64,000 nucleotides of DNA from Desulfovibrio gilichinskyi. Its GTDB lineage: Bacteria; Desulfobacterota; Desulfovibrionia; Desulfovibrionales; Desulfovibrionaceae. Location of the stretch: positions 62,001-126,000 of the forward strand of contig NZ_FWZU01000001.1 of the NCBI RefSeq assembly GCF_900177375.1, given 5' to 3'. Shown piece by piece: positions 18,853 to 52,301 of the stretch; position 1 is the stretch's first letter; each line of letters opens with the position of its first letter. A program made the translations under genes and the position numbers. Below the pieces are notes generated by a model, which saw nothing but the letters and a program-made list of their open reading frames with translations, was not told the DNA's origin and did no database searches.

Positions 18853-21387
18853 TTATTTGGCTGAGACGATGTATCTGGTAGAAGGTCCGCGGCCTTGTTT
18901 CGTGAGCATTTCCCGTCTTACAAAATCTTGCAGATCGTAAATTGCTGTGCGCGTTGGAAGATGTCCTCCTACTATGTCCTGATATTCTTTGCGGGTGACT
19001 GTTTTTTTAGTTCTGATCTTAGGCCATGCCAAGTTTTGCCGCTCGTTCAAAGGAGCTGGATCTTCAACCTGATTCTTTTCTTTGTAGTTACTATTTTCAG
19101 AAGGTTTTTCTTTCACTGTGCTGACAGTTGCGTCTACTCCTGAAAAAGTGGGCATTTCTGCATCGGAAAATGATACTTTTGATTCAATTTCACCCTCAAG
19201 TCTTATTTCTTCCGGCTGGATAATCTTTCCTTCAGCCATGACGGTTGCTCTTGTAATGCAGTTTACCAACTCGCGAACGTTGCCTGACCATTGGTAAGAT
19301 ATCAGTTTGCTTAATGCGCCTTTGCTTATGCCCATATCAGTACGACTTGTAAGCTGTTCGGCCTGCTTGAGATAAAAAATACTCAACAAAGGTATATTTT
19401 CAGGGTGTTCACGCAGGGCCGGTGTTGCAATTGAGACAACCTTTAATCTGTAATATAAATCTTCCCTGAAAATTTTCTGTTCAATCAGCGAAGGCAGATC
19501 AACGTTCGTTGCGGCAATTATTCTTACGTTGAAATCGAGTTCTTTGTCGCTGCCGAGCGGCTTGATTTTTCTTGATGCAATAGCTCTAAGCAGGGACTGC
19601 TGAACTTTCGGTGAGGCTGATTGAATTTCATCCAGAAACAATGTTCCTTCATTCGCTTCATTAAAGGCCCCGCTGCGGTCCGTCTTCGCGTCTGAAAACG
19701 CTCCTTTAACGTGCCCGAATAATACGTCCAATAAAAGATTTTCATCAAGTGCGCCGCAGTTGATAGAAATAAAGGGCATTTTTTTGCGGTTGCTTTGATT
19801 ATGAATTGCCTCTGCTACGAGTTGTTTACCTGTTCCTGTTTCACCGGAAATGAGAACATCAACATCAACGTGAGCGGCTTTTAATATATCTGACTTAAGA
19901 CGCGAAATTATTGGTCCATGACCAATAATTTCAGGCATGATGCTCAGTTCTACGTCCACCAGAGTATCCAGTTCCCGTTTAAGGTCTGCCGGTTCACGCT
20001 TGTTTACATTGAAAATGGCTTCGTCTTTTGCCTGCAACTCAGTAACTTGCTGTTTAACTCGCCGGATGATGTTATTAATAGATCGTTGCAGCATCTCCAC
20101 ATCAAATCCGCAGTACGGGAGATTAATTTCTTCCAAGGTTTCCAGTGAACTAAGTTCGTTCATTTTAGTAGCCAGCTTGAGAACCGGGGTTGTCAGTATC
20201 CGTCCGATGCAGAAGATAAGGATTGATATGATCGCAATTGAAACTATTGTGACCATGAGCATTATATCAAAATGCTTATATCCCGCGATGATTGGAAGCT
20301 GGCTTCGATCTATAAAAACAACGCCGCCGTAAATCACAGGCGACGTGTTACTTGCAGTTTTAAATTTTACAGGAGCGTAGGAAAAGTAGAATGATTTAAC
20401 GTTTGAATTGGCATTATTTTTTTCGGCAATTTGGAACAGACCGTTTTCATTGTTTTTGATTTTTTCGAGTGCTTGCCAGAATATTGCGTGATTTTTATTT
20501 GGCCTGAATGCAGAGGCTTGCCCTTGTTTGCCAAGTGTTCCTTCAAAGTTTTCTCTGGCAAGAAATGTGGTGAGTTCTTTATCTTTTTCAGCAGTCGAAG
20601 CAGACTGAAAAAGAATCCAGCCTTCAGTATTTAAAAGGTAACTGAAGCGCAGTTCCTGGCTTCTGGGAAACGCCCACAAGGGGGATTGTTCCGAGTTATA
20701 AAGTGAAAGAATATTACGAATCTGAGAAGCTTCTACTGAAAGAAATAAAATTCCTGGAGGGTTAGCATTGTCACCGGGAAAATATGTGTAAAAACGGATA
20801 ACATGAGTGCGGACATGCATGTTCGAAGCCTTGGCATCCGGCAAAGGATATACCACTTCCATCACTTGCGAAGGCTGAACTTCTCCTTGTTTCAGGGAAT
20901 TGATTTTACCTAGTTCTAAAAGAGGGTTTGGCTGTATCTGGGATAATTCAGTTAAGCCCATTTCATTAACTATACCGTTTTTCTGCACAAGGACGACAGG
21001 CTGTCCTCCTGAGGCGGGGAGATAAGCAAGCTCAAAATAGTTGTTACCGCCAGCCCGCATGTGTCTTTTCATCATATCCCGCAAGGATTTTGGCTGCATA
21101 TCGCCTTGCGCAATGAAAAGCAGATCTGTTTTGCATCTTTCCATGTATTGCTCGACTTCATGAACAATGCCTAAAGTGTGAACTTTGACTGTTCGAGTCA
21201 GGGCAATGTGAATATACTCATCAGCAACACGATAAGATGTATATCCCGCGAATAGAAGAATTGCTAGAATGGAGGGAAGGAGAGTGAGCAATAACTTGCC
21301 CCTGAGCCCTAGTTTCCTAGATATTTTGCTTGTGATGTTTCGCAAGCCTTCCTTCTTGGAATTTTTATCTGAAAAGGATTCAGCCAT
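18853..21387 (-). CDS. Membrane-anchored sigma-54-activator-like AAA+ regulator with periplasmic sensor
   Basis: This 844-residue protein has TM1 at about 30-52, a periplasmic Cache-like sensor (about 55-370), TM2 at about 375-398 and a HAMP-like linker. The AAA+ domain (about 475-710) carries Walker A 'GETGTGKQ', 'GTLFLDEIQSA' and 'FREDLYYRL'. The sigma-54-contacting loop reads GAFSDA (562-567) where activators have GAFTGA. The C-terminus lacks a Fis helix and ends in a winged-helix-like 'TRKEYQDIVGG..TRTAIYDL' segment. A one-protein sensor and transcription factor is thus possible. AGGAG precedes the ATG. It is divergent from a kinase that has a sigma-54 promoter, its likely partner or target. 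Confidence 0.8.
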   Translation of the reverse strand: MAESFSDKNSKKEGLRNITSKISRKLGLRGKLLLTLLPSILAILLFAGYTSYRVADEYIHIALTRTVKVHTLGIVHEVEQYMERCKTDLLFIAQGDMQPKSLRDMMKRHMRAGGNNYFELAYLPASGGQPVVLVQKNGIVNEMGLTELSQIQPNPLLELGKINSLKQGEVQPSQVMEVVYPLPDAKASNMHVRTHVIRFYTYFPGDNANPPGILFLSVEASQIRNILSLYNSEQSPLWAFPRSQELRFSYLLNTEGWILFQSASTAEKDKELTTFLARENFEGTLGKQGQASAFRPNKNHAIFWQALEKIKNNENGLFQIAEKNNANSNVKSFYFSYAPVKFKTASNTSPVIYGGVVFIDRSQLPIIAGYKHFDIMLMVTIVSIAIISILIFCIGRILTTPVLKLATKMNELSSLETLEEINLPYCGFDVEMLQRSINNIIRRVKQQVTELQAKDEAIFNVNKREPADLKRELDTLVDVELSIMPEIIGHGPIISRLKSDILKAAHVDVDVLISGETGTGKQLVAEAIHNQSNRKKMPFISINCGALDENLLLDVLFGHVKGAFSDAKTDRSGAFNEANEGTLFLDEIQSASPKVQQSLLRAIASRKIKPLGSDKELDFNVRIIAATNVDLPSLIEQKIFREDLYYRLKVVSIATPALREHPENIPLLSIFYLKQAEQLTSRTDMGISKGALSKLISYQWSGNVRELVNCITRATVMAEGKIIQPEEIRLEGEIESKVSFSDAEMPTFSGVDATVSTVKEKPSENSNYKEKNQVEDPAPLNERQNLAWPKIRTKKTVTRKEYQDIVGGHLPTRTAIYDLQDFVRREMLTKQGRGPSTRYIVSAK

Positions 21388-21420
21388 GCCGCTCTCCTAG
21401 AGTTCTGATCATTTTACGGT

Positions 21421-21444
21421 AGATAGTTCAAAATTTCACTATCT
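21421..21444. promoter_or_regulatory. Inverted repeat in the divergent control region
   Basis: AGATAGT and ACTATCT are separated by 10 bp of TCAAAATTTC, itself partly symmetric. It lies about 40 bp upstream of the sigma-54 promoter at 21485 and near the start of the AAA+ regulator, a natural place for an enhancer or autoregulatory site. Confidence 0.4.
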
Positions 21445-21484
21445 TTTGCGATATGTCTCTTTACTTTATTTTGTCAATAACTTT

Positions 21485-21501
21485 TTGGCATAAGCCTTGC
21501 T
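21485..21501 (+). promoter_or_regulatory. Sigma-54 promoter for kinase gene
   Basis: TTGGCATAAGCCTTGCT matches the -24/-12 consensus (GG and GC 10 bp apart, TTGC intact), about 115 bp before the kinase ATG. Confidence 0.65.
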
Positions 21502-21616
21502 TAATATGTCTATTATGCGTGTGGTGTAAGCATGTTTTTTATTTGATAATATAGTACCTTGTAATTTTTTGGTAGTAATAAAAAAATACGGCAATTTCGT
21601 GCAAAAGGACAAAGTA

Positions 21617-23296
21617 ATGAAAAAACTGATTGACTGCAGAGTTCATAAGCTCCTTCTCATTTCCATGATTGTTGTTCCGGCAATACCACTTCTTCTGGCG
21701 ATGTTTATCGGATATTATTCATACTCAAAAACAACGGAAAAGCTGGTTGTAAGTGCTATTCGACAATCTGCGATAGATCACCGGGATATAATTTCGGCAT
21801 TCCTGAAAGAACGGCAGACTGATCTGCAGTCATATCTGAATTTAATCCCTGCTGATCATTTGCAATGGGGAATGGATCATGGCGACATCGCTTTGATGTT
21901 TAAAAATGCAGGAGGTGTCTTTCAGGATTTAGGTTTGATTGCCCCTGATGGGGTACAGATCTCATATTCAGGAGCATATGAATTGACTGAAAAAAACTAT
22001 CTTGATGCACCTTGGTATCAAGATACAATAAAAAACGGTTATCATGTAAGCGATGTTTTTTTGGGATACCGCAACGTTCCGCATTTTGTTGTTGCGGTTA
22101 CGCGGATTATCGATGGGAAGCCGTGGGTGCTGCGCGGTACGATTAATTCGGATATTTTTAGAAAGCTTGTTGATGGCGTAAAGCTTGGAGATACCGGTGA
22201 GGCATATATTGTCAGTCAGGACGGTAAGTTTCAGACTGCGCGCAGATCCGGCGGCGGACTTCTCGAGAATGATTTATTTAATTATCCTTATCAGAAAAAA
22301 AATATAATTACGTTTCTTGGAAATGATGACGGGGTTGACTATTTGCTTGCGTCCGCCCTCATGAATGACGGCAAGTGGCGGCTTATTGTGCGGCAAAAGA
22401 GAGCAGATGCTTTCCGGTCAACAAATATTGCAGGATATACAATTCTTCTTGTTCTGCTTTGCGGCGGGGCTGTGATTGTTGTTCTGGCTCTTTTTACCAG
22501 CCGTAAAATTTATGAAACTCTTGAGCGGCAGGCTGAAGCTGTCTGTACTTTAGAAAATCAGCTTATGCGTGCTGCAAGGCTTGCAGAGCTCGGTGAAATG
22601 TCGGCAGGATTTGCGCATGAAATAAATAACCCGCTTCAGATAATGAAGAGCGATCTGGCATTATTGGAATTGGTTCTTGAGGATGCATTACCAAGTAACT
22701 GTGAACCTGCAGTACGTGATGAGGTTAAGGATATTTCGGATCAGCTAAAATTGCAGATAGACCGTTGCGCCGGCATAACACGTGAAATCTTAAATTTCGG
22801 ACGGAGCAGTAAGCCGGAATTACAGAAGATTGATCTTTCCGTTTATTTACCGGGAGTGGGGGCCATGGTTGAAAAGAAAGCCACCGTTCATGGAGTAGAA
22901 ATGGGGTGCGAAATCAGTCCTGAAACCCCTCAGATTGAGGCTGACCCCAGACAATTACAACAGGTAATGGTTAATCTGCTGAACAATGCAATTTATGCAG
23001 TGATTGACCGTCATGGTTCTGAAGGCGGAAAAGTAAAGGTTGATGCTACTCTCGGTGCTGACGGAAGTGCTGTAATAAAAGTTGCTGATAACGGAACGGG
23101 CATAAGTCCTGACAATCTGACTAAAATTTTTGTTCCTTTCTTTTCAACAAAAGCACCGGGGCAGGGGACTGGGCTTGGTCTGTCTGTCTGCCATACAATA
23201 ATAAGCACGCTTGGCGGCGACCTTGCTGTTGAAAGTGTTAAGAATGAAGGTACTGTTTTTACTATTACTCTACCCGGACTTAAAACTAATTCTTAA
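21617..23296 (+). CDS. Sensor histidine kinase with periplasmic Cache domain
   Basis: The ATG at 21617, with AGGAC upstream, gives 559 residues starting MKKLIDC; an in-frame start 48 nt earlier lacks a ribosome site. TM1 lies at about 12-34, then a Cache sensor with 'DLGLIAPDGVQISYSGAYEL' and 'VSDVFLGYRNVPHFVVAV', and TM2 at about 272-293. The phosphoacceptor is H334 in 'AGFAHEINNPLQIM', followed by an HATPase domain with 'NNAIYAV', 'DNGTGI' and 'GTGLGLSVC'. The same sensor type recurs in the kinases at 30778 and 42901, so the three may detect related ligands. A terminator follows, so its receivers are presumably encoded by the next operon. Confidence 0.9.
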   Translation: MKKLIDCRVHKLLLISMIVVPAIPLLLAMFIGYYSYSKTTEKLVVSAIRQSAIDHRDIISAFLKERQTDLQSYLNLIPADHLQWGMDHGDIALMFKNAGGVFQDLGLIAPDGVQISYSGAYELTEKNYLDAPWYQDTIKNGYHVSDVFLGYRNVPHFVVAVTRIIDGKPWVLRGTINSDIFRKLVDGVKLGDTGEAYIVSQDGKFQTARRSGGGLLENDLFNYPYQKKNIITFLGNDDGVDYLLASALMNDGKWRLIVRQKRADAFRSTNIAGYTILLVLLCGGAVIVVLALFTSRKIYETLERQAEAVCTLENQLMRAARLAELGEMSAGFAHEINNPLQIMKSDLALLELVLEDALPSNCEPAVRDEVKDISDQLKLQIDRCAGITREILNFGRSSKPELQKIDLSVYLPGVGAMVEKKATVHGVEMGCEISPETPQIEADPRQLQQVMVNLLNNAIYAVIDRHGSEGGKVKVDATLGADGSAVIKVADNGTGISPDNLTKIFVPFFSTKAPGQGTGLGLSVCHTIISTLGGDLAVESVKNEGTVFTITLPGLKTNS

Positions 23297-23372
23297 CTCT
23301 AAACAGTTCGTATAAATATTTATGAGTTTAAAGTTCATAAACTTACGCTGATTACAATATTGATTCTTTTGA

Positions 23373-23420
23373 AAATCCTTCTTGATCCGCACACGCGTGC
23401 TGAGCAAGAAGGATTTTTTT
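23373..23420 (+). terminator. Rho-independent terminator after the kinase gene
   Basis: A 12-bp stem (AAATCCTTCTTG with CAAGAAGGATTT) encloses a 20-nt loop with internal pairing and is followed by T residues. A 23-bp imperfect palindrome (TTTATGA...TCATAAA) precedes it at 23319-23341. Confidence 0.8.
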
Positions 23421-23430
23421 GCTCTATTAA

Positions 23431-23461
23431 TAAATCACGCAATAGTGTTTTGCGTGATTTA
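23431..23461. promoter_or_regulatory. 12-bp inverted repeat upstream of sigma-54 promoter (candidate enhancer)
   Basis: TAAATCACGCAA and TTGCGTGATTTA are perfect complements separated by 7 nt. The repeat ends 26 bp before the -24 box at 23487. It could be an activator-binding site or a second hairpin; no T-run follows directly. Confidence 0.5.
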
Positions 23462-23486
23462 ACCTTTTTATTACATATAGTTACGC

Positions 23487-23503
23487 TTGGCACGCGGGTT
23501 GCA
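23487..23503 (+). promoter_or_regulatory. Consensus sigma-54 promoter for module A
   Basis: TTGGCACGCGGGTTGCA is an essentially perfect -24/-12 element, about 120 bp before the first receiver gene of a long co-directional run that reaches at least 36702. The rest of the 23297-23622 gap contains the terminator and inverted repeats listed separately. Confidence 0.85.
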
Positions 23504-23622
23504 AAAGGGATCGTAAGAAATTTGTAAAAACAAGTTGGGAAAAGGCACGGAGAAGTCACAAGCAACCAGATTAAGGTGTTTGGCTTCACCTTAAAAGAAG
23601 TCAGACACAATGCGAGACAGCT

Positions 23623-24051
23623 ATGGAACAGATGAAAATCATGCTTGTAGATGACGAAGAGCGTCTGCTCAGCACAACAAAAAAACTTTTCGAGAAGATG
23701 GGGATTGATGTTGTTACATCAACGTCCGGAAAAGATGCCCTGGAACTGCTCAAGATTGAAAAAGTAAAAGTGATTTTTCTCGATATTAAAATGCCCGGAA
23801 TGGACGGCATGGAGACTTTGCAACGTATCAAGAAAGATTACCCGCTTATTGAAGTGATCATTCTAACGGGGCACGCAACTATGGAGTCTGCAGTGGAAGG
23901 TCTGAAGCTCGGTGCGATGGATTTTCTAGTTAAACCTGTAAGCATGAAGGACATTCTCGGGAAGGTTGAGGAGGCTTTTGAAAAAGTTTCACGACACAAG
24001 CAAAAAATTCTTTCCGCTAAGATGGCTGATGCAGCCGAAGGTAGAAAGTAA
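23623..24051 (+). CDS. Single-domain response regulator (receiver only)
   Basis: This 142-residue receiver has the acidic pair D10-D11, phosphoacceptor D54 in 'IFLDIKMPGMDG', Thr in 'IILTGHAT' and Lys in 'LVKPV'. The remaining 25 residues form a basic helix, not a DNA-binding domain, so it acts by protein contact or as a phosphate relay. It is the first gene of module A, behind the sigma-54 promoter. Confidence 0.92.
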   Translation: MEQMKIMLVDDEERLLSTTKKLFEKMGIDVVTSTSGKDALELLKIEKVKVIFLDIKMPGMDGMETLQRIKKDYPLIEVIILTGHATMESAVEGLKLGAMDFLVKPVSMKDILGKVEEAFEKVSRHKQKILSAKMADAAEGRK

Positions 24052-24080
24052 GAATTGATTGAACTTCAAGGAGGTTGATA

Positions 24081-24980
24081 ATGAGTAAAATTACGGTCCT
24101 CATGGTCGACGATGAGGAACGCTTCCGCACCACGACAGCTAAGATACTGTCTCGCAAAGGATTTGAGACAATCCTTGCTGCTAGTGGCGAAGAAGCCTTG
24201 GAAAAACTTGGGGAAAATCCGGATGTGGTCATTCTGGATGTTAAAATGAGCGGGATGGACGGGCATCAGACATTGGAACGGATCAAGGCAATTGTGCCGG
24301 ATCTTCCTATTATCATGCTCACAGGTCATGGGGACCTTTCCGGAGCTATGAAAGCTCATAAAACAGGCGCGTTCGATTTTCTTGCAAAGCCATGTGACAT
24401 CGATCTGCTGGCTGATAAGATTCAGGACGCTTACGCTTCTGCATCTAAAAAGCCTTATCGTGAAAAATTGGCAGGGGAGGTAATGATTCCTCTGGATGAT
24501 TATACCATGATTTCTGTTGACAGCACCGTGTCTGACGCCATTGCAGCCTTGAAAAAAGCCATGAGTGAATTTGTGGCCACTAACAAGCTGATGGATACAG
24601 GGCATCGTTCGGTTGTTGTTACCAATCCTGACGGTAGCGTTGCAGGCATACTTAATCCTTTGAATCTTATCAATGCAATCAGGCCGGCTTATCTGACGGC
24701 TCCTAAACCTTCAATGGCGGACAGTCTTCAATATTCAGCCATGTTCTGGGAAGGGCTTTTCACTTCCCGCGTAAAAGAAATCATGAACAAACCTGTGCAT
24801 GAACTGATGTCTGAAACTCTTCCGGTCATCAGTTTTGATGCAAACCTCATGGATGTTGCCAACAACATGGTGACTATTCCTGCAAGGCGCATGGTTGTTC
24901 AGAAAGACGGCAGGGACATCGGCATCGTCCGGGAACAGGAACTCTTTTATGAGATCGCCCGGATAATTTCATCGAGCTAA
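24081..24980 (+). CDS. Response regulator: receiver fused to a CBS-domain pair
   Basis: The ATG at 24081 follows AGGAGG; an upstream in-frame TTG overlaps that ribosome site and is rejected. The 299-residue protein has a receiver (1-125; D53 in 'VVILDVKMSGMDG') and then two CBS-type repeats. The first is around 'YTMISVDSTVSDAIAALK' and 'SVVVTNPDGSVAGIL'. The second is around 'VHELMSETLPVISFDA' and 'RMVVQKDGRDIGIV'. CBS pairs bind adenine nucleotides, so phosphorylation state and energy charge could be read together. It sits immediately before the SLC13 permease gene (31-nt gap), suggesting transporter control. Confidence 0.85.
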   Translation: MSKITVLMVDDEERFRTTTAKILSRKGFETILAASGEEALEKLGENPDVVILDVKMSGMDGHQTLERIKAIVPDLPIIMLTGHGDLSGAMKAHKTGAFDFLAKPCDIDLLADKIQDAYASASKKPYREKLAGEVMIPLDDYTMISVDSTVSDAIAALKKAMSEFVATNKLMDTGHRSVVVTNPDGSVAGILNPLNLINAIRPAYLTAPKPSMADSLQYSAMFWEGLFTSRVKEIMNKPVHELMSETLPVISFDANLMDVANNMVTIPARRMVVQKDGRDIGIVREQELFYEIARIISSS

Positions 24981-25011
24981 TAATACTGAAGTTCAGCGAT
25001 AGAGGTGAAAC

Positions 25012-26862
25012 ATGGCTCAAGAAAAAAAGAAAGCGACCGGGTATGACAAGTATGTCAACTGGAAGCTGTTAATAATCCCGGTAGTATTATTTTGTATCGT
25101 CATTATGCTTCCTACTTCTTCAGGAATGAAGAAGGTCGGTATGCAGTATTCGGTAGGCCCCAAGGCTGTCACTAATTATATCTGTGAGCAGTTGTTTAAC
25201 AAAAAAAGTTCTAATGTTGAGCAGTGGCAGAAGCTGACCGCTCAAATGATGGAACAAAGCATGCGCATGGGAGCCTTATCAAAGGCCAGATTTATGAAGC
25301 GTGATGCTAAGTGGTTGAAGCAGTATAAAATCCCCGGTGATTCCGCCAACCTTAAAAAAGCACTTGAATACGTAAATACCAATTTTACTGATGCTGCTTT
25401 CCTGACAGTGATGAAAGGTGCGTTCGATCAAAGGAATAAGAATCTTTCGTACGCAGATCTTTCGTCATCTGATCAGAAGAGTGCTGACACAGGCGCATGG
25501 AAGATTAAAGTTTCCATCGCGATGGTCATCTTTGTGGTCTTCTGTTTTATGACAGAATGTATGCCGCTTCCAGGTGTTGCTTTCTGTATAGGACTGATTC
25601 TTGTTTTCACAGGAGTTGTTTCCCGAAGTGAAGTGGCAGGACTTTATTGGGATGATGCCTGCTGGTTTATTATGGGTTCGCTCATGTTCGCAGCTGCTTT
25701 CGTCAAAACGGGAGTGGATAAGAGAATGTGCCTGATCATGTTCAGGAAACTGGCTGTGCCGAATGTCCGCTGGATTACGATGATTTTCTTCCTTGTAATC
25801 AGCCCGCTTGCGGCATTTATTTCTGACCATGCGCTTGCAGCAATGTTTCTGCCTATCGGTATGTTGCTTTATCAGAACAGCCTTACTGACGAAATTCCTG
25901 AAGACAAGGAATTAGCAAAGATGCTGATGATAACGATTGCCATGGCATGTAACATCGGCGGTCCTGGCGCACCTTCGGGCGGCGCACGAAACGTTATCAT
26001 GATGACCTATCTTACCGACATGTTCGGCATGGATATCGGTTACGCTCAGTGGATTATGTACTGTATGCCTTTCGTTATAGTCATGATTCCTTTCACTTGG
26101 ATTGTAACCAATATGGTTTTCAAGCCGAAAATCAGGTCGCTTGCTCCTGCTATGCGCCATCTTGAAGGCGAAATAGTCAAGATGGGTAAGTGGAACAAGC
26201 ATCAGATCTGGGCCATGATTATCTTCGTAGTTATGGTTTTCGGATGGTTCACTGAAAAGGAATTCTACAATCTCGGTATCTATCCTATCCGCCTTGGTAT
26301 CGGTGTAATAGCAGTTGCCGGAGCTGTAGCTTATCTGCTGGCCGGTGTTGTTAACTGGCGTGATTATCAGGAGAAGGTCGACTGGGGTGTAGTCTGGTTA
26401 TATGCCGGTGCAATTATCTTCGGACGCACCTTGGATAAGACCGGCGCGGCATATTGGCTTGCTCAGTCCGTAATCGACATGCTTGCTCCGCTCGGTATGG
26501 ACAAGGGTATTCCGCTGATGCTGACATCTAACGGTTTGACAGCTGTATTAACAAACTTAATGGCTGACGGTCCTGCCGCAGCAGCAGTCGGTCCAATCAC
26601 ATTGAATATGGCAAGTATTGTCCATCCCGGAACCACGTTCCTACCGTTCATGGCAATGGCAACAGCAGTAGCTTCATCGTTCGCATATTGTCTCATTATA
26701 GGAACTCCTCCTAACGCAATTGTTTACGCTTCCGGTTATTTGGAGCCTAAGGATTACTTGAGAGTCGGTGTGCCGATGTGGTTTATTGCCAACATTATGA
26801 TAGTCCTTCTTACCTCATTGTACTGGTGTAATATCGGTTTCGGAAGTCTGCCCGGATTTTAA
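25012..26862 (+). CDS. SLC13/DASS-family anion:sodium symporter-like permease
   Basis: This 616-residue polytopic protein has its first TM at about 18-38. An unusually long extracytoplasmic insertion (about 40-160) follows, rich in charged residues. The remaining membrane domain begins near 165. Family-type signatures are 'FMTECMPLPGVAF', 'ISDHALAAMFLPIG', 'NIGGPGAPSGGARNVIM' and, in the second repeat, 'IIGTPPNAIVYASG'. The family carries dicarboxylates, citrate or sulfate, and is one of those suspected of sulfate uptake in sulfate reducers. It lies inside module A between a REC-CBS regulator and a small membrane protein. Confidence 0.88.
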   Translation: MAQEKKKATGYDKYVNWKLLIIPVVLFCIVIMLPTSSGMKKVGMQYSVGPKAVTNYICEQLFNKKSSNVEQWQKLTAQMMEQSMRMGALSKARFMKRDAKWLKQYKIPGDSANLKKALEYVNTNFTDAAFLTVMKGAFDQRNKNLSYADLSSSDQKSADTGAWKIKVSIAMVIFVVFCFMTECMPLPGVAFCIGLILVFTGVVSRSEVAGLYWDDACWFIMGSLMFAAAFVKTGVDKRMCLIMFRKLAVPNVRWITMIFFLVISPLAAFISDHALAAMFLPIGMLLYQNSLTDEIPEDKELAKMLMITIAMACNIGGPGAPSGGARNVIMMTYLTDMFGMDIGYAQWIMYCMPFVIVMIPFTWIVTNMVFKPKIRSLAPAMRHLEGEIVKMGKWNKHQIWAMIIFVVMVFGWFTEKEFYNLGIYPIRLGIGVIAVAGAVAYLLAGVVNWRDYQEKVDWGVVWLYAGAIIFGRTLDKTGAAYWLAQSVIDMLAPLGMDKGIPLMLTSNGLTAVLTNLMADGPAAAAVGPITLNMASIVHPGTTFLPFMAMATAVASSFAYCLIIGTPPNAIVYASGYLEPKDYLRVGVPMWFIANIMIVLLTSLYWCNIGFGSLPGF

Positions 26863-26882
26863 ATAGGGTAAAATAAATTATT

Positions 26883-26915
26883 CCCGGCGGTCGGATGGAA
26901 AGTCCGACCGCCGGG
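26883..26915 (+). other. GC-rich intercistronic hairpin
   Basis: A perfect 13-bp stem (CCCGGCGGTCGGA with TCCGACCGCCGGG) has a 7-nt loop and no T-run, 21 bp past the permease stop and ahead of the ribosome site of the next gene. It probably protects or attenuates the mRNA and is not a full terminator. Confidence 0.7.
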
Positions 26916-26935
26916 CTATAAAGGGGAGAAACTTC

Positions 26936-27088: not shown

Positions 27089-27099
27089 GAGGGAAGGTC

Positions 27100-27648: not shown

Positions 27649-27712
27649 AATTATAACTGATAAATATTTTGATCTCACCGCAACATGACCTGCACTACCC
27701 CCTCACCCGCCA

Positions 27713-27739: not shown

Positions 27740-27772
27740 AACTGGTAAGAAAGGTAATAAAGGAGTCAGGAA

Positions 27773-28156: not shown

Positions 28157-28174
28157 TCTGCCGGAGATATCATT

Positions 28175-44616: not shown

Positions 44617-44689
44617 TAAACGAATTTCATAGGTGTGATTTGATAATTATTCGTTGTTTGTAAATTACAATAAAACAGGAGGTTATGCC

Positions 44690-45121
44690 ATGTTAGCTAC
44701 TATTCTTCTTATCGATGACGAGCATGGATTTGTGGACACCATGTCAAAGCGGCTCAGCAAACGGAGTCTGACTGTTCACACCGCTTATAACGGGCAGGAC
44801 GGACTTGAGATCCTTGCAAATAATCATTCCATCGATGTGGTTGTCTTAGATGTCAAAATGCCGGGTATCGGCGGAATAGATGTTCTTAAAATGATCAAGA
44901 CAGAGCACCCGCTGGTGGAAGTAATAATGCTTACAGGACATGCGACTGTTGAAAGTGCCATTGATGGCATGAAGAACGGCGCGTTTGATTACATGCTTAA
45001 GCCGTGTGAGATGGAAGAGCTTCTTGCAAAGATTAAAGATGCCTATCTGAAAAAGCAGTCTCAGGAAAATAAAATATATGAGGCTAGAGCGAGGCATATT
45101 GAATTGCGCAGAGGCGATTAA
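44690..45121 (+). CDS. Single-domain response regulator
   Basis: The ATG at 44690 follows AGGAGGT; an in-frame start at 44654 would put that site inside the gene. The 143-residue receiver has D9-D10, D54 in 'VVVLDVKMPGIGG', Thr in 'IMLTGHAT' and Lys in 'MLKPCE'. A helical tail ('KKQSQENKIYEARARHIELR') follows, with no output domain. Confidence 0.9.
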   Translation: MLATILLIDDEHGFVDTMSKRLSKRSLTVHTAYNGQDGLEILANNHSIDVVVLDVKMPGIGGIDVLKMIKTEHPLVEVIMLTGHATVESAIDGMKNGAFDYMLKPCEMEELLAKIKDAYLKKQSQENKIYEARARHIELRRGD

Positions 45122-45132
45122 AGGGAGTTGTC

Positions 45133-45504
45133 ATGTCCGTTCAGATGATCAGGGTCTTGATTGTAGATGATGAACGTGGGTTCACCGAGGTTTTGCAAAA
45201 ACGCCTCGGTAAGCGCGGTTTGAAAATTGTGACTGCCGTCGGCGGAACCGTCGCAATTCAGAGTTTAAGGAAGAATGATTTTGATGTCGCAATTCTGGAT
45301 CTTAAAATGGAGGACATGGATGGGATTGAGGTTCTTAAAATATTCAAAAAAATGGCTCCGGACATGCCTGTGATTATGCTTACCGGACACGGTTCCGGAA
45401 AAGCAGCCAAAGAAGGTATGGAGCATGGTGCTTTTGATTATCTGTTAAAGCCTTGTGATCTGGAAGAGTTGCTCGGAAAAATTCATCAGGCTGTTAATCG
45501 CTAA
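45133..45504 (+). CDS. Single-domain response regulator
   Basis: This 123-residue receiver has D12-D13, D56 in 'VAILDLKMEDMDG', Thr in 'IMLTGHGS' and Lys in 'LLKPCD'. The Pro that normally follows the Met after the phosphoacceptor is Glu here, a mild oddity. It starts 11 nt after the preceding receiver with AGGGAG upstream, a tandem pair behind one kinase. Confidence 0.92.
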   Translation: MSVQMIRVLIVDDERGFTEVLQKRLGKRGLKIVTAVGGTVAIQSLRKNDFDVAILDLKMEDMDGIEVLKIFKKMAPDMPVIMLTGHGSGKAAKEGMEHGAFDYLLKPCDLEELLGKIHQAVNR

Positions 45505-45600
45505 ATTTGAAAAATCCTTCAGGCGTGAAGCGCATCAGAAGGTGAGAATAGTGGCAATGGTCAAGAATGAGGACATAAAAATTAAAATAAGGATAATCTT

Positions 45601-46863
45601 ATGAATTTTGCACGTAAATTTTATACTGCGTTGCAGCAGGCAGCGATGGCCCATGCAAGGTGGGATCTGGAGGTCTCCACCAGTATTATCAGGGATAAGC
45701 GTAAAGTATGGCTTCTTGCTATACTGACCGCTTTAGGGCTGATGGTTTCACTCGCTTTTGCTGATGATCTTAATTTACCGGCAATGCTCGGCGGCAGCAA
45801 AGCCTATACTCCGGCTTTTTATACAACAGGTATTTTTGTGGCTTCTATCGCCATCGGTGTTTGCGCCGGTTTAATTACCGGATGTATCGGAGCAGGCGGC
45901 GGGTTTATTATTACTCCTGCGTTGATGTCGGCCGGAATTAAGGGTATTTTGGCAGTAGGTACTGACTTGTTCCATATTTTTGCTAAAGCAATCATGGGAA
46001 CGGCTGTGCATAAGAAACTCGGAAACGTTTCGGTTGGACTTGCTGTTGCTTTCTTAGTTGGATCAGGTGCAGGCGTACTCGGAGGCGGGGTTTTGAACCG
46101 TATGATTTACGAGGCGAATCCTGTTGCGTCTGATGCTTTTATTTCCGTCATTTATGTTGTTCTGCTTGGCTTCCTGGGTATGTATGCAATGCTCGACTTT
46201 CTGCGCTTACGCAAAGCCGGAAACGGCGGTGACGCGCACGGAGGCGGAGGTAGCAGTTCAGGCGGTCTTCCTGCCAAGCTTCAATCTGCTCATATACCGC
46301 CGATGATTTCTTTTGATGAAGATTTAATTCCCGGCGGTAAGAAAATCTCCGGTCTGTTTGTTGCTCTCTGCGGGGTTATAGTTGGTTTTATGGCAGCTAT
46401 TATGGGCGTTGGCGGAGGTTTTTTGACCTTTCCTATGTTCGTATATGTTCTAGGTGTAAGTTCGTTTACAACTGTCGGAACTGATATTTTGCAGATCATT
46501 TTCACAGCTGGATTTGCTGCAATTACTCAGTACGCAATTTACGGTTTTATCTTTTACACTTTGGCAATGGGAATGCTTTTGGGATCGCTTCTCGGTATTC
46601 AGATAGGAGCTCTCGTAACTAAGCTTGTTCCCGGATTATATATCCGTGGTTTTTACGCTTTGGCAATTCTTGCAGGATTTGTAAACAGATTGTTTGCTAT
46701 GCCGTCAAAGCTTAATGATATGAAGATCCTGTCGATAAACCTGGATTTATGCGCCTTTTTAACAAATGTAGGTAATTGGTTGTTTTTCTTGACTATCGGG
46801 GTGTTTGCAGTGTGGGTTATCGGTACATTCCTGTCTAAAATCAAGGAATTGAGGGAGGGTTAG
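45601..46863 (+). CDS. TauE/SafE-family permease with N-terminal extension (module B)
   Basis: This 420-residue protein has a cytoplasmic N-terminal extension (1-35) and about eight or nine membrane helices in two halves. Family segments are 'GCIGAGGGFIITPALM' near 100 and 'AAIMGVGGGFLTFPMF' near 265; each is followed by a 'VGTD' motif. A Gly/Ser-rich cytoplasmic loop ('GGGGSSSGGLPAKLQSA') separates them. It is clearly longer than, and different from, the TauE-like permease of module A. It probably carries sulfate or another oxyanion. The 236-residue membrane protein starts 3 nt after its stop. Confidence 0.85.
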   Translation: MNFARKFYTALQQAAMAHARWDLEVSTSIIRDKRKVWLLAILTALGLMVSLAFADDLNLPAMLGGSKAYTPAFYTTGIFVASIAIGVCAGLITGCIGAGGGFIITPALMSAGIKGILAVGTDLFHIFAKAIMGTAVHKKLGNVSVGLAVAFLVGSGAGVLGGGVLNRMIYEANPVASDAFISVIYVVLLGFLGMYAMLDFLRLRKAGNGGDAHGGGGSSSGGLPAKLQSAHIPPMISFDEDLIPGGKKISGLFVALCGVIVGFMAAIMGVGGGFLTFPMFVYVLGVSSFTTVGTDILQIIFTAGFAAITQYAIYGFIFYTLAMGMLLGSLLGIQIGALVTKLVPGLYIRGFYALAILAGFVNRLFAMPSKLNDMKILSINLDLCAFLTNVGNWLFFLTIGVFAVWVIGTFLSKIKELREG

Positions 46864-46866
46864 ATT

Positions 46867-47577
46867 ATGTTGATACGCGATAAAAAACATTTTTATACGG
46901 GGCTGACCCTTGCTTTAGGTTTTCTGGGGATTCTTTATTATATGTTTACCCCGAGTTTTAACGGTATGAATGCTTTCCATGCTTCAGATGGTTTGTTTAA
47001 TTCTATATCCAAAGGGTCAACTTACTATATTCCTCAGGTCAAGGAAGGGATCAAAAAGTTTGATGGCAAGAATTTTGAAACAACTATTTTTGAAGATAAA
47101 ATTAAGTTCATTCCATATGCTACTACAATCTTGGAAGCGAATGGTTTTGCAGTGACCAAATCCGGGCAGGGAATAACCGTTTCCGGCGATATAGGTGCGC
47201 TCATGATGCGCGCAACGGAAGACTCGGATGTTATGTTTAATAACAACGGGAATGTCCTTGAAGCAAAGTATGGTATGGACGCAAAGCAGGCTCTGTACGT
47301 ATGGTGGCAGACAATGAAAGAAGTGAAAAGTTCTCTGGATCAGCAGAAGAAATTTCCACCTGCAACGTTTATAAGTAAAAACGTTATTAACCGGGCCATA
47401 GAAGTTGGTTACAACTATTACGGCATTGAGGGACAGCATGCTTCTGAGCGGTGGGGGATTATTCTTTTTTCACTTGTCTTCTATGTCATTTATACCATGT
47501 GGTGGGGCTATGCGATCTTCTTCATGTTCGAAGGGGTCGGCCTTGAGATGAAGTCCAGTAGAAAAAAAGAAATGTAA
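46867..47577 (+). CDS. Bitopic membrane protein with periplasmic domain, TauE permease partner
   Basis: This 236-residue protein has TM1 at about 10-28, an extracytoplasmic domain (about 30-190; 'GLFNSISKGSTYYIPQVKEG', 'GFAVTKSGQGITVSGDIGAL') and TM2 at about 196-218, then a short basic tail. I do not recognise the family. It starts 3 nt after the permease, so a complex with it is likely. The periplasmic domain could capture substrate or gate the permease. Confidence 0.75.
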   Translation: MLIRDKKHFYTGLTLALGFLGILYYMFTPSFNGMNAFHASDGLFNSISKGSTYYIPQVKEGIKKFDGKNFETTIFEDKIKFIPYATTILEANGFAVTKSGQGITVSGDIGALMMRATEDSDVMFNNNGNVLEAKYGMDAKQALYVWWQTMKEVKSSLDQQKKFPPATFISKNVINRAIEVGYNYYGIEGQHASERWGIILFSLVFYVIYTMWWGYAIFFMFEGVGLEMKSSRKKEM

Positions 47578-47621
47578 TTTAACTGATTGAAAACTAATAA
47601 TTATAAGCGGGTCGCGGACAT

Positions 47622-50219
47622 ATGAGTTTATTTGATTGGCTTCCTTTCAGGAAAAAACAAGCCGAAAAAACACAAGAAGATCTGGCTGAAATACGCCGGA
47701 CGTTCGCGACTCGCTATGATCATTTCAGGCTGCTCATTCAGGCCAACACTGCGACCCATGAGCTTATGGCGGAACTGGAAGAGGCTCTTCGCGGTTTTCA
47801 GCCGTATGGGATGCACTATGTGCGGGCTTTATGCACTCGAATTTCAACTTCAGTTTTTCAGATGATAAGACATCTTAATGAACTTGATCAGGATTCTTAT
47901 AAAAAACTTTACGATCAGTTTTCCGCTATTCAAAATAAGATTTCACCGCATCTTGAATCCAAGCAGCATAATGAAGACGGAGATCTTGTTCTTGCTTTGT
48001 CTGATGTCGGGCGTGATCAGGCCGACTTATGCGGACCTAAGATGGCAACCCTCGGCGAAGCTGGGAACAAGCTCGGGCTTAAAATTCCTGACGGTTTTGT
48101 TGTAACCACCGGGGCTTTTCGTAAATTTATGAAAAAGGACGGCCTTGAAGAAGAAGTCGATAGAATTATTCAGACTGTTGATCCTGAAGATCGGGAAGCA
48201 ATGTTTCAACTTTCGTCAAAAATAATGCAGTTGATAATACATTCTGATCTGCCGGACGATGTAGCCGCAGAAATTTTGAAAGCATATGATTCATTAAGTG
48301 CCGGTAAGGGACGGGCAGTAAATGTTGCGGTCCGCTCCAGTGCTTTAGGTGAAGACAGCGAAGGTGCTGCTTTCGCCGGACAGTACCGCTCCATTTTAAA
48401 TGTAGATCGCAGTTCATTACTTTTAGCCTGTAAAGAGGTAATGGCTTCCAAGTATTCTTTGCAGGCAATGGCTTACCGCATTAATCGCGGCATTCGTGAT
48501 GAGGATGTCGCCATGAGTGTCGGGTGCATAATGATGATTGATGCAACCGCCGGAGGCGTTGCGTATTCGCGGAACCCTATGAATATCCGTGATGAAAATA
48601 TTTCTGTCTATTCAGTTTGGGGTTTACCGAAAGGTGTTGTTGACGGGGCTGCTGAGTCCGATGAGTTTATGGTCAGCCGTACTAAGCCAATGCAGGTGAT
48701 AGGTCGCCATATTGCAGATAAGGAAGATAAATATGTTTGCGATACAGGTGAAGGCGTATGCCGAGTCAGCCAGATTGAACGTCTCAGGGGTGAACCTTCT
48801 TTAAGTGATGATCAGGTTGTAAACGTAGCTGAAAATTCCGTTCGTATAGAAGATCACTTCGGTTTGCCGCAGGATATTGAATGGGCAATTACAGAAGACG
48901 GTGATCTTTATATTCTGCAATGCAGACCTTTGATGCAACTGGAAGATCCTTCTGAAGTTGTTCTGCAAACCAGCTCCGTATCTATCCCTATACTTTCAGG
49001 AGGGCGTACAGCTAACCCCGGTGTAGGAGTCGGTCCTGTTTTTATTTTCCGTAAGGATGCTGATGCGCTTCGTTTTCCGGATGGGGCTGTGCTCATTTTA
49101 AGACAGGCTTTACCCAGCCGCGCGGTTCTTCTCAGCAGATGCTGCGCCGTAATAACTGAACAGGGCGGTATTGCCGGACATTTAGCCAACGTCGCCAGAG
49201 AATTCGGAGTGCCTGCATTGTTTGGAGTAAAAGGGGCGTTGAGCAGTTTTGAAGAAGGGCAGATTGTTACTGTAGATGCGGACGGGCGTGCTGTATACGT
49301 CGGAAAAGTTGATGAACTGCTTAAAGAAAAACCAAGGCATCGGCTTATGCGCGGCAGCTCTGTTCAGGCAACGCTTACAAAAGCGGCAAGACATATTGTG
49401 CGGCTTAATCTGACTGATCCTGATTCTCCTAAATTCAAGCCTTCAAATTGTAAAACTTTGCATGACATCATGCGTTATTGCCATGAGATGGCAGTTCGCG
49501 AAATGTTTGAATTCGGAACTAAAAAAGAATTTGTGCAGTCTGCGTCACGTCAGCTTATTTGCAATGTGCCGAAGCAGTTCTGGGTTCTTAATCTTGGAAA
49601 CGGTATTTCTCCTGAAGGACGAAAAAGAACAGACAGGTGTGTTCTTCTTGAAGATATAAACTCGGTTCCCATGCGTGCATTATGGGAAGGCATGCAGGCT
49701 GTTCCGTGGGACGGCCCTCCGGCTGTTCATACACAAGGGCTTCTTTCTGTAATGTTTGAGGCAACGGTTAACCCTGATTTAAATACAACAAGTTCGTCCA
49801 GATTTTCTCAGAAAAATTATTTTATGATTTCAGACAGGTATTGCTGTTTGCAATCCCGCTTCGGTTTTCATTTTTGCGGAGTGGAAGCTCTTATCAGTGA
49901 TCGAGTGAGCGAAAATTATGCAAGTTTTCAATTCAAGGGTGGAGCCGCGAATCTGGAGCGTAGAATCCTGCGGGCAAAATTTGTAGGTGAAATTCTTGAT
50001 GAGTTCGATTTTAGAGTAAGGATCAGGGAAGATAATCTAAATGCCCGCCTTGAAGGTCTTGAACGGTTAAGTATGGAAAGACGTCTCAAAATTTTAGGGT
50101 ATCTCATCACTCATACCCGTCAGCTTGATATGATTATGACTAACAGTTGTGAAGTTGAGAAATATAAAAAGAAGTTTTTTGAAGATTTCAAGCTGTTTCC
50201 CGCCGTTATTAAAAATTAA
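47622..50219 (+). CDS. PEP-synthase-like dikinase-family protein (paralog B)
   Basis: This 865-residue protein has the same architecture as the gene at 28175: helical N-terminus (1-135), ATP-grasp domain with 'VRSSALGEDSEGAAFAGQY', 'GGVAYSRNPMN' and 'DIEWAITEDGDLYILQCRPL', and a swivel domain with H520 in 'GGIAGHLANVAREFGVPALF'. The same unidentified C-terminal 300 residues follow ('GPPAVHTQGLLSVMFEA', 'LQSRFGFHFCGVEALI'). The PEP/pyruvate barrel is absent. It lies between an anion permease with its partner and a receiver plus SulP permease. Both paralogs keep the phosphohistidine, arguing for activity. Confidence 0.8.
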   Translation: MSLFDWLPFRKKQAEKTQEDLAEIRRTFATRYDHFRLLIQANTATHELMAELEEALRGFQPYGMHYVRALCTRISTSVFQMIRHLNELDQDSYKKLYDQFSAIQNKISPHLESKQHNEDGDLVLALSDVGRDQADLCGPKMATLGEAGNKLGLKIPDGFVVTTGAFRKFMKKDGLEEEVDRIIQTVDPEDREAMFQLSSKIMQLIIHSDLPDDVAAEILKAYDSLSAGKGRAVNVAVRSSALGEDSEGAAFAGQYRSILNVDRSSLLLACKEVMASKYSLQAMAYRINRGIRDEDVAMSVGCIMMIDATAGGVAYSRNPMNIRDENISVYSVWGLPKGVVDGAAESDEFMVSRTKPMQVIGRHIADKEDKYVCDTGEGVCRVSQIERLRGEPSLSDDQVVNVAENSVRIEDHFGLPQDIEWAITEDGDLYILQCRPLMQLEDPSEVVLQTSSVSIPILSGGRTANPGVGVGPVFIFRKDADALRFPDGAVLILRQALPSRAVLLSRCCAVITEQGGIAGHLANVAREFGVPALFGVKGALSSFEEGQIVTVDADGRAVYVGKVDELLKEKPRHRLMRGSSVQATLTKAARHIVRLNLTDPDSPKFKPSNCKTLHDIMRYCHEMAVREMFEFGTKKEFVQSASRQLICNVPKQFWVLNLGNGISPEGRKRTDRCVLLEDINSVPMRALWEGMQAVPWDGPPAVHTQGLLSVMFEATVNPDLNTTSSSRFSQKNYFMISDRYCCLQSRFGFHFCGVEALISDRVSENYASFQFKGGAANLERRILRAKFVGEILDEFDFRVRIREDNLNARLEGLERLSMERRLKILGYLITHTRQLDMIMTNSCEVEKYKKKFFEDFKLFPAVIKN

Positions 50220-50249: not shown

Positions 50250-50669
50250 ATGTCTGTGAATGTACTTTTAGCAGATGATGAGACCGGTTTTGTCGATGCG
50301 CTGGCTAAGCGTCTGACAAAACGCGGTTATAGAGTGCAACATGTAAATAGCGGAAAAGCTGCTGTAGAGGTCCTTGCCGCAGATTTCAGTATAGAGGTTG
50401 TTGTACTTGATGTTAGAATGCCTGAGCCTAACGGCTTGGACACACTTCATTTAATAAAAAAGAAGTATCCTGCTGTGGAAGTTATCATGTTGAGTGCTCA
50501 CGGTACGCCGCTATGTACTATGGAAAGTATTCGCTGGGGTGCATATAAGTTTTTGATTAAGCCTGTCGAGCTAGATGAGCTGATTAAAACTATCGATGGA
50601 GCTGCTGAAACAGGGCGTTTGCATCGCCAGAGAATGAGTGCAAAAGATTTGCAGAAGGACCAAGCCTAA
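50250..50669 (+). CDS. Single-domain response regulator
   Basis: This 139-residue receiver has D9-D10, D54 in 'VVVLDVRMPEPNG', Ser in place of the switch Thr ('IMLSAHGT') and Lys in 'LIKPVE'. No output domain. Its stop is immediately followed by the ATG of the SulP permease gene, so the two are translationally linked; control of that permease by the receiver is a fair inference. Confidence 0.92.
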   Translation: MSVNVLLADDETGFVDALAKRLTKRGYRVQHVNSGKAAVEVLAADFSIEVVVLDVRMPEPNGLDTLHLIKKKYPAVEVIMLSAHGTPLCTMESIRWGAYKFLIKPVELDELIKTIDGAAETGRLHRQRMSAKDLQKDQA

Positions 50670-52301
50670 ATGAGCAACGTATTAAAAGTCGGTTTTAAAC
50701 CTACTGCTTTGATGGGTGATGTTTTCGGTGGTCTTACTGCGGGTATTATCGCTTTGCCTCTTGCCCTTGCTTTTGGTGTGGCAAGCGGGGCGGGGGCTGC
50801 CGCCGGTCTTTACGGTGCGATTATTCTTGGATTTTTCGCAGCCATACTGGGCGGAACTCCTACTCAGGTGTCAGGCCCGACCGGTCCGATGACGGTGGTG
50901 ACTGCTACGGCAATAGCCGCCTTTGCAGGGGATTTTCAATCTGTCTGTATGGTAGTTGTTCTGGCCGGAATTATTCAGATTATTTTCGGCGTGTGCCGTT
51001 TGGGTGGATTTGTCAGGTTTATACCCTATCCGGTTATTTCAGGGTTTATGACAGGCATCGGCGTAATTATTATACTGCTGCAAATTGAACCTATTTTGGG
51101 CAGTGCAGGCATCGGTTCTCCGTTAATGGCAATAGTGCATATGCCTGAAGCTATTGCGAATGTTTCTCTTCCAAGTCTTTCTCTGGCTGTTGCAACCATG
51201 GTTATTGTATTTAAGATTCCTCCACGCATCACGCGGGTGGTGCCTTCGCCGCTTATTGCGCTGGTAGGTATGACCGCTATCGCTGGGATATTTAATCTTC
51301 CGGTACATACCATAGGGGAAATTCCCTCAGGATTGCCGGAATTTCATTTTCCGTCCATAAATCTAGCACAGTGGAGCAGTATTGCAGGAACAGCGTTTGC
51401 TCTTGCCTTGCTTGGTACAATCGATTCTTTGCTGACTTCAATAGTTGCGGATTCCGTAACCAAGGATCACCACGATTCAAACAGAGAACTCATAGGGCAG
51501 GGAATAGGTAATGCTTTGTGCGGTTTTATGGGAGGTCTTCCCGGGGCCGGGGCGACCATGCGTACTGTCGTCAACATCAAGGCCGGGGGGCGGACCAGAT
51601 TGTCCGGAGTTATTCATTCTCTGGTCCTTTTGTTGATACTTGTAGGAGCGGGGCCGTTAGCTTCACATATTCCACTTGCGGTTCTGTCCGGAATTTTAGT
51701 CAAAGTCGGTGTTGATATTCTTGATTATCGGCTGCTGCGCCTCGTGCGTAAAATTCCGCGTGAGGATTTAATGGTGATGGTTACAGTCTTCGGGGTCACG
51801 GTTTTTGTAGACCTGATTGTAGCGGTGGCTCTCGGAGTAACGCTTGCGGCGATTATGACTACATGGCGCATAGCCAGCCATACCAGCATAAGTATTTTGG
51901 ATGCCGGAGCAGGTAAGGAAAATTCCGTTTCTGAACGTGAGATCCAAGAAGACAGCAATTTCCGCATCCGTGTTGTTACTATAAATGGGCCGTTCTTTTT
52001 CGGCACAACTTCTCAGATGACGGATAAGGTTGAGCGTCTGCTGGGTACGCGTATTGTGGTGGTTGACTGTATGTCCGTTCCTTTTATTGATATCTCCGCT
52101 GTTTTTGCTTTAAGCGAAATGGTTGAAAAACTTCGTGATGTGGATATCAGAGTTGTTATTGCCCTGCAGGACGGCATGTGTAAGCGCATGAGGGAACTTG
52201 GGCTTATTCAAGTTGTGGGCGAAGAGAATGTTTTTAAAAGTCAGGGGAGTGCCTTGCAAATGGCGCAGATGCTTTTAGATGAAGAGGATGACGATTCATA
52301 A
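50670..52301 (+). CDS. SulP-family anion permease with STAS domain
   Basis: This 543-residue protein has a membrane domain (about 10-405) beginning 'ALMGDVFGGLTAGIIALPLA', with 'GGTPTQVSGPTGPMTVVTA' near 70 and 'LLTSIVADSVTKDHHDSNRE' with 'GQGIGNALCGFMGGLPGAGA' near 250-295. A cytoplasmic STAS domain (about 425-535; 'VVVDCMSVPFIDISAVFALS') follows. SulP proteins exchange or import sulfate, bicarbonate or dicarboxylates. It is the last gene of module B, directly abutting a receiver. It is one of four transporters in this locus from families linked to sulfate or oxyanions. Confidence 0.93.
   Translation: MSNVLKVGFKPTALMGDVFGGLTAGIIALPLALAFGVASGAGAAAGLYGAIILGFFAAILGGTPTQVSGPTGPMTVVTATAIAAFAGDFQSVCMVVVLAGIIQIIFGVCRLGGFVRFIPYPVISGFMTGIGVIIILLQIEPILGSAGIGSPLMAIVHMPEAIANVSLPSLSLAVATMVIVFKIPPRITRVVPSPLIALVGMTAIAGIFNLPVHTIGEIPSGLPEFHFPSINLAQWSSIAGTAFALALLGTIDSLLTSIVADSVTKDHHDSNRELIGQGIGNALCGFMGGLPGAGATMRTVVNIKAGGRTRLSGVIHSLVLLLILVGAGPLASHIPLAVLSGILVKVGVDILDYRLLRLVRKIPREDLMVMVTVFGVTVFVDLIVAVALGVTLAAIMTTWRIASHTSISILDAGAGKENSVSEREIQEDSNFRIRVVTINGPFFFGTTSQMTDKVERLLGTRIVVVDCMSVPFIDISAVFALSEMVEKLRDVDIRVVIALQDGMCKRMRELGLIQVVGEENVFKSQGSALQMAQMLLDEEDDDS

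Follow-up and report, generated by a model that had tools for sequence, protein, structure and literature searches.

The subject of this study is a 33-kb locus (positions 18853-52301) in a 64,000-nucleotide stretch of Desulfovibrio gilichinskyi DNA (contig NZ_FWZU01000001.1; the whole stretch is called the window), where genes of histidine kinases, receivers, anion permeases and dikinase-like proteins lie together. Gene order in congeneric genomes indicates that the locus is composed of two independent, neighbouring modules, A (18853-35744) and B (39353-50219). With about even confidence we propose that each of them represents one recurrent kind of element, a module for anion uptake that is gated by two-component proteins and includes a dikinase-like phosphotransferase. 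The proposal is based on gene content, conserved synteny, sigma54-like sites and the clustering of permease types on the tree of the dikinase-like proteins; furthermore, the ATP-grasp and phospho-histidine (phospho-His) motifs of these proteins are intact and the phosphoenolpyruvate (PEP) barrel is absent.

The gene inventory of the original prediction, made from the letters of the sequence, was reproduced by Pfam scans: the locus encodes seven histidine kinases and, not counting receiver domains of kinases or AAA+ proteins, eight receivers, one of which carries a CBS domain; further genes are those of a pseudo-receiver, two AAA+ proteins, both of sigma54 type, two dikinase-like proteins, both with PPDK_N and PEP-utilizers domains, and four anion permeases (one SLC13, two TauE, one SulP). 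The co-directional arrangement from 21.6 to 52.3 kb was also confirmed, since every gene of 21569-52301 is on the + strand, with intergenic gaps of -35 to 326 bp (gene starts in gap and frame computations were set mechanically). The locus holds 11 of the 134 receiver-domain matches of the 3.96 Mb source genome, compared with 1.1 expected by length. The three dCache kinases (HK1, HK2 and HK7) share 31-33% identity and the two dikinase-like proteins, PPDKa and PPDKb, 39%, whereas TauEa and TauEb share just 27% and are therefore not close paralogues.

Twelve congeners were searched; ten contain a close match of PPDKb (67-93%) and six a match at 39-41%, which is the PPDKa orthologue in all three loci read (genomes G250, G254 and G256). 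In these three genomes the order of module A is retained at 78-94% identity. It begins with AAAreg (18853-21387, - strand), a membrane-anchored AAA+ regulator of sigma54 type (Pfam PF00158, two hydrophobic segments) divergent from the remainder of the module; its position is conserved in all three, the gene being cut by the stretch end in G254. On the + strand follow HK1 (21569-23296), located just upstream of the start originally assigned to module A, the stand-alone receiver RR1 (23623-24051), RRCBS, a receiver with a CBS domain (24075-24980), the SLC13/DASS permease (25012-26862; 90-91% identity in the three genomes), a Yip1-domain membrane protein (27100-27648), the stand-alone receiver RR3 (27773-28156), which ends 18 bp before PPDKa (28175-30781), HK2 (30778-32439; its dCache_1 match is slightly under the cut-off), RR4 (stand-alone receiver, 32448-32846), the short kinase HK3 (32843-33742), RR5 (stand-alone receiver, 33758-34192) and, as last gene, the PAS kinase HK4 (34218-35744).

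Module B is retained in the same three genomes and in G258, and all of its genes are on the + strand. It consists of HK6 (39353-40855), an NtrC-type regulator (40840-42258), the pseudo-receiver (42492-42908), HK7 (42874-44616), the stand-alone receivers RR6 (44654-45121) and RR7 (45133-45504), TauEb (45601-46863; 90-96% identity in the four genomes), unk236 (46867-47577) and PPDKb (47622-50219). The pseudo-receiver matches the receiver family with 25.2 bits, under the cut-off of 30.2, and no acceptor Asp was found when its sequence was inspected by eye; its frame overlaps the start of HK7 and it is conserved at 85-94% identity in the four genomes. Proteins resembling it stand at the equivalent position in L026, L035 and L036 (L numbers designate loci read in this work). 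The small TauE partner unk236 matches no family, its profile recurs beside TauE, and its hydrophobic ends were recognized by eye only, a sliding window having detected no hydrophobic segment. An extra receiver precedes TauEb in G250, G256 and G254, not in the window or G258. In the PPDKb matches of G254, G255 and G258 one in-frame stop was flagged; the sequences of G254 and G258, when read, each form one open frame over 862/865 residues.

The two modules adjoin in the window, G250 and G256, are on separate contigs in G254, and in G258 module B was found and module A was not. In G250 and G256, neither TauEa (35761-36702, +) nor the hybrid kinase HK5 (36802-39096, +) is present between HK4 and HK6, and in G254 HK4 is not followed by TauEa; judged by gene order, these two genes are not part of a conserved module. 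Downstream of module B, the stand-alone receiver RR8 (50250-50669, +) and the SulP permease (50670-52301, +) are present in G256 and G254 and absent in G250; in G255 the coordinates place a SulP after module B, and in G258 the RR8 match covers 31 residues at most. From this synteny it follows that the conserved permease of module A is SLC13 and that of module B is TauE, SulP with RR8 being an option of B. Thus the module layout proposed earlier stood in its content, a dCache kinase, receivers and a dikinase-like protein being present in both modules, while its boundaries had to be redrawn to those given above and a TauE permease in each module could not be upheld.

Scanning of the whole window for -24/-12-like elements resulted in three sites scoring at least 10/11, all upstream of genes of the locus: 21486-21501 (10.0/11), 23488-23503 (11.0/11) and 42440-42455 (10.5/11), all on the + strand and 83, 135 and 52 bp upstream of HK1, RR1 and the pseudo-receiver, respectively; 0.63 sites were expected from 30 mononucleotide shuffles. 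The last two are at the module starts for which sigma54 promoters had been predicted and are candidates for them. The NtrC-type regulator retains GAFTGA; AAAreg has GAFSDA instead, so its contact with sigma54 may be altered. A sigma54 operon is characterized by a -24/-12-like site ahead of its first gene and by a neighbouring activator with GAFTGA; as far as sequence can tell, both appear to be present here.

PPDKa and PPDKb are composed of an N-terminal helical region, an ATP-grasp domain, a phospho-His domain and a C-terminal domain of about 280 residues that has no significant Pfam match. ATP-grasp followed by a swivelling phospho-His domain is the order found in PEP synthase (PpsA) and pyruvate phosphate dikinase; the dikinase-like protein differs by its extra N-terminal helical region and by another domain which replaces the C-terminal PEP/pyruvate barrel. 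Neither protein matched PEP-utilizers_C, the Pfam family of this barrel, at E<=0.001; the best matches of the family profile to PDB sequences stop by position 587 of 860; and the secondary structure predicted for the C-terminal part is mixed alpha/beta, with no eightfold beta-alpha repeat in the models. Since the barrel is missing, identification as a PEP synthase was rejected; the scores for TIGR01418 are 280.1 and 330.1 bits, the cut-off being 739.75. Rifampin phosphotransferase applies ATP-grasp and phospho-His dikinase chemistry to a non-pyruvate acceptor, but its acceptor domain and domain order are different, and the window proteins score far under its NCBIfam cut-off (NF041857, 178.5 and 229.9 bits against 999). 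In Foldseek searches PEP synthase and rifampin phosphotransferase were the top fold matches of the predicted whole protein (mean predicted local distance difference test score, pLDDT, 88.5 for full PPDKb and 82.3 for the C-terminal domain alone); the C-terminal domain model gave nothing among PDB folds at E<=0.001. Partial matches of this model to arginine kinase (75 columns, E 0.07) were not used.

The phospho-His is kept in 101 of 102 aligned proteins matching both profiles, the exception being a degenerate copy in L011; the alignment predates the finding of a degenerate copy in L123. A conserved HD..R..HE motif is present in the C-terminal domain together with further near-invariant positions; His, Asp, Arg and Glu are among the near-invariant residues. 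Both degenerate proteins (L011:11682-13634 and L123:4968-6668) have no phospho-His motif and lie beside TauE and its partner, and their retention there suggests a separate binding function of the C-terminal domain. Other variants were also encountered. Enlarged frames of 1037-1833 aa (mechanical starts) occur in L094, L097, L098, L101, L102, L112, L113 and L030; in the four scanned (L094, L097, L102 and L113) the extra stretches matched no Pfam family save one weak match below cut-off. In L052:12940-15363, L080:12678-15362 and L082:12916-15285 the C-terminal domain matches and the ATP-grasp profile fails; each of them is flanked by two full dikinase-like genes, and the L052 protein, the sole one scanned, keeps its phospho-His domain.

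Of the genomes sampled, 55 of 61 in the order and 73 of 197 in the phylum match the profile of the C-terminal domain, the own genome included in both cases. Loci were collected by dikinase sequence alone, as the best 79 of 564 hits; 78 held a full gene, and 43 of these had at least 5 kb on both flanks, 35 being left out for short flanks. Within 8 kb of the dikinase-like gene, 42 of the 43 loci have a receiver protein that matches neither kinase nor AAA+ (a class that includes longer multi-part proteins, 25 of 151 exceeding 200 aa), 38 a kinase, 38 TauE, 31 a sigma54 AAA+ protein, four SLC13 and one SulP; none of the three permeases was found in four. A same-strand receiver stands at most 200 bp from the dikinase-like gene in 32 of them. 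Since these loci were the best-scoring hits, 17 whole genomes of the order were also taken, which we selected from the 61 mainly because their contigs were few (1 to 100). Here TauE is at most 10 kb away from 33 of 76 genes with the C-terminal domain (from 27 of 62 clusters), against 3.4 of 76 expected, about ten times more often than by chance; where a match was split in two, its second piece was left out of this count, which reduced the dikinase rows from 83 to 76 genes (seven pieces) and the TauE rows from 139 to 138 (one piece). The co-occurrence search that had been suggested together with the original prediction had a positive outcome, the dikinase-like protein being recurrently linked with receivers, kinases and anion permeases in many sulfate-reducing relatives.

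The own genome has eight TauE genes and five dikinase-like genes, and four of the former lie at most 10 kb from one of the latter. A third module there (L010:6555-13561) includes a universal-stress-like protein, TauE, a periplasmic partner, a dikinase-like protein, a receiver and two stress-like proteins (names given by eye), and its layout recurs among the survey loci. Thirty-five clusters of the 17 genomes have no TauE; among 26 inspected, five contain SLC13 and six are of nitrate type (PhnD and/or tyrosine phosphatase), one of the latter (L104) having a DctM permease as well. A 27th (L009, own genome) has NhaB and a phosphatase adjoining the dikinase.

On a FastTree tree of 147 dikinase-like proteins, with the two window rows labelled by hand, the partner types need 30 changes compared with 88 in shuffles, a contrast that is inflated by near-copies and long branches. 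The nitrate-type dikinases form one branch with local support 98; long-branch warnings concern L011 with L123 and L122 with L118, all of nitrate type. Chance juxtaposition of the genes is rejected by the linkage counts, the congener synteny and this tree.

In an openly accessible literature search no publication on the module was found besides Korte 2014 (PMC4001038), the excerpted sections of which deal with a homologous cluster. There, insertions in eight listed genes of Dde_0597-0605 (DUF169, TauE, hypothetical, PtxB-like, kinase, stand-alone receiver, dikinase-like and phosphatase genes) raised fitness with nitrate (values of 2.08-3.51), not with nitrite, 0599 being missing from the fitness table. 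Pooled data of D. vulgaris agree for DVU0251, 0249, 0247 and 0246 and disagree for 0250 and 0245, and single mutants of DVU0246, 0247, 0250 and 0251 grew equally with and without 100 mM nitrate. In the four relatives L119-L122, from the order of which the D. vulgaris gene orientation was deduced, TauE is upstream and the receiver, dikinase and phosphatase genes are downstream on the same strand; hence the phenotypes of receiver and dikinase mutants are unlikely to be polar effects on TauE. By analogy, a mutant phenotype common to the permease, the stand-alone receiver and the dikinase-like gene points to joint action of these components with the importer. As far as the available extracts of two other reports go, DVU0251 was elevated in mRNA and not in protein in biofilm (PMC3431258), and a 'pyruvate phosphate dikinase' beside a sigma54-domain gene was slightly down with NO (PMC5701242); in the extract of PMC4215793 the cluster was not found.

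Module B has the core set of the nitrate cluster (DVU0251-DVU0245 and Dde_0597-0605), which is TauE, a small hypothetical partner gene, a histidine kinase, a stand-alone receiver and a dikinase-like protein. The partner is of a different type, unk236 in module B and mem216 in the nitrate cluster, which also has its own PtxB/PhnD-like protein and tyrosine phosphatase (neither was among the Pfam results of module A or B), no SLC13 or SulP in the loci read, and a separate dikinase clade, the window dikinases being outside the nitrate branch. In the own genome the nitrate cluster is apparently split and partly degenerate: L011 carries DUF169, TauE, a partner, PhnD, a kinase and the dikinase without phospho-His domain, and L009 a dikinase and a phosphatase.

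Regarding the substrates, the SLC13 permease is above the cut-off of the DASS model TIGR00785, and for TauEb no PDB sequence relative was found at E<=0.1. The closest NCBIfam model of SulP is that of BicA (NF050096, 487.6 bits), although the score is under the cut-off of 880; among PDB sequences 6ki1 leads with 342.6 bits, the next one having 166.4. We take 6ki1 to be the cyanobacterial BicA, even if the entry itself prints 'Low affinity sulfate transporter'. By model and PDB match alike, the optional SulP of module B thus most resembles a BicA-type bicarbonate transporter. Adjoining it on the opposite strand (52359-53654) is a YczE-like membrane domain (DUF6198) fused to a cytidylate-kinase-like domain. 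Sulfate, which had been put forward as substrate, is unsupported, and nothing in these comparisons seems to point to it in particular; for the related TauE cluster the authors of the nitrate study suggested, in its excerpted part, a leaky thiosulfate transporter through which nitrate leaks (PMC4001038).

Taken together, we infer the ligand, the phosphate flow, the acceptor and the gating of the permease as follows, and we give an even chance to the core of this model, namely that the sensor kinases act via output-less receivers and the dikinase-like phosphotransferase on the cognate anion permease. The dCache kinases would sense a periplasmic ligand and phosphorylate the stand-alone receivers. 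These, having no DNA-binding output, might bind in the phosphorylated state to the dikinase-like protein and/or the permease complex. The dikinase-like protein would charge its own swivelling His from ATP, and the phosphate could pass from there to an acceptor held by the C-terminal domain, whereby the cognate permease would be switched or licensed: SLC13 in module A, TauE with its small partner in module B, and SulP where RR8-SulP is present. NtrC, perhaps also AAAreg, would set transcription through sigma54. Post-translational action of the receivers at this locus, already part of the original prediction, stays a putative element, and that prediction as a whole was partly supported.

Several observations weigh against this model. 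Fifteen of the 26 inspected clusters without TauE have no profile-recognised permease within five genes, so the family may not be dedicated to permeases; several of them have unscanned multi-pass neighbours, and some have kinases or receivers nearby. The degenerate dikinases next to TauE imply that catalysis is not always needed at the permease, and the receivers could feed other outputs. On the tree the SLC13 label and the TauE_unk236 label need nine changes each, and 31 of the 147 rows bear no partner label. The genetics concern a homologous cluster with another dikinase clade, not the window modules; furthermore, in the excerpted sections of PMC4001038 nitrate inhibits the DVU0245 mutant, the DVU0250 data from pools do not agree with those from the isolated mutant, and the kinase gene DVU0248 is a pseudogene in DvH.

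An alternative that keeps the catalysis but moves it to the cargo is a transport-linked activation, in which the dikinase-like protein phosphorylates the imported substrate and the C-terminal domain is the substrate site. The chemistry would be ATP + X + H2O -> X-P + AMP + Pi, as in rifampin phosphotransferase or phenylphosphate-type enzymes. It would be in harmony with the intact ATP-grasp and phospho-His, with the replacement of the barrel by a domain of near-invariant His, Asp, Arg and Glu, and with whole-protein fold matches led by PEP synthase and rifampin phosphotransferase. We hold it to be unlikely, since one type of C-terminal domain accompanies SLC13, TauE and in places SulP, inorganic oxyanions would hardly serve as acceptors, and degenerate copies are retained beside TauE.

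Ordinary co-regulation, to which we attach a similarly small probability, would mean that permeases and a PEP-synthase-like enzyme of carbon metabolism are encoded in sigma54 operons turned on by the kinases and NtrC, the extra receivers being phosphate sinks or acting elsewhere. The GAFTGA-containing NtrC and the three sigma54-like sites suit this explanation, and according to the consulted portion of Kazakov 2015 (PMC4641369), TSUP or PSE transporters occur in nine sigma54 operons of D. vulgaris, and two PSE transporters share their regulation with lactate genes. However, the absent PEP barrel, together with PEP synthase scores of 280 and 330 bits against a cut-off of 740, speaks against the carbon enzyme, and in the excerpted genetics of the homologous cluster the receiver and dikinase-like genes have the nitrate phenotype of the permease.

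A more far-reaching reading, which we find rather improbable, is that the dikinase-like protein is a new kind of signalling phosphotransferase, an ATP-charged His carrier similar to enzyme I of the phosphotransferase system (PTS), with the barrel replaced by a dedicated docking domain; it would exchange phosphate with stand-alone receivers in a direct manner (from His to Asp, or under the receivers' control) to open or close anion permeases; if true, output-less receivers would gain a common, so far unnoticed effector. The integrated 33-kb sulfate-uptake system of the original prediction, for which the co-direction of 21.6-52.3 kb and the adjacency of A and B in the window, G250 and G256 could be cited, is very improbable, because A and B stand on separate contigs in G254 and only B was found in G258, TauEa and HK5 are missing at the junction in G250 and G256, and SulP is BicA-like and was found within 8 kb of the dikinase-like gene at just one of 43 database loci.

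Sulfate respiration starts with anion import, and little is understood of how this import is controlled. The widespread dikinase-like family, without close PDB fold for its C-terminal domain, is a concrete candidate effector for output-less receivers and permeases, and the proposed module may link the published nitrate resistance of Desulfovibrio mutants, which has relevance to souring control, to a general kind of gene cluster.

Finally, a profile built from HK1, HK2 and HK7 was run against the own genome. The top three matches were these kinases, as expected by construction, and one further strong match of 174 bits was obtained in L124, again inside a permease and receiver cluster, the remainder being below 28 bits. 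This cluster (L124:4193-10795, own genome C2) has a second SulP (711 aa), a cytidylate-kinase-like/receiver fusion, the dCache kinase, a receiver, a HisKA protein and a receiver, without dikinase; a comparable run in L034 comprises a SulP (712 aa), a 407-aa receiver protein and a dCache kinase. Farther along, at L124:14351-17055, a TauE (483 aa) stands with an unk236-like partner (418 aa), with no dikinase in the 20 kb read.

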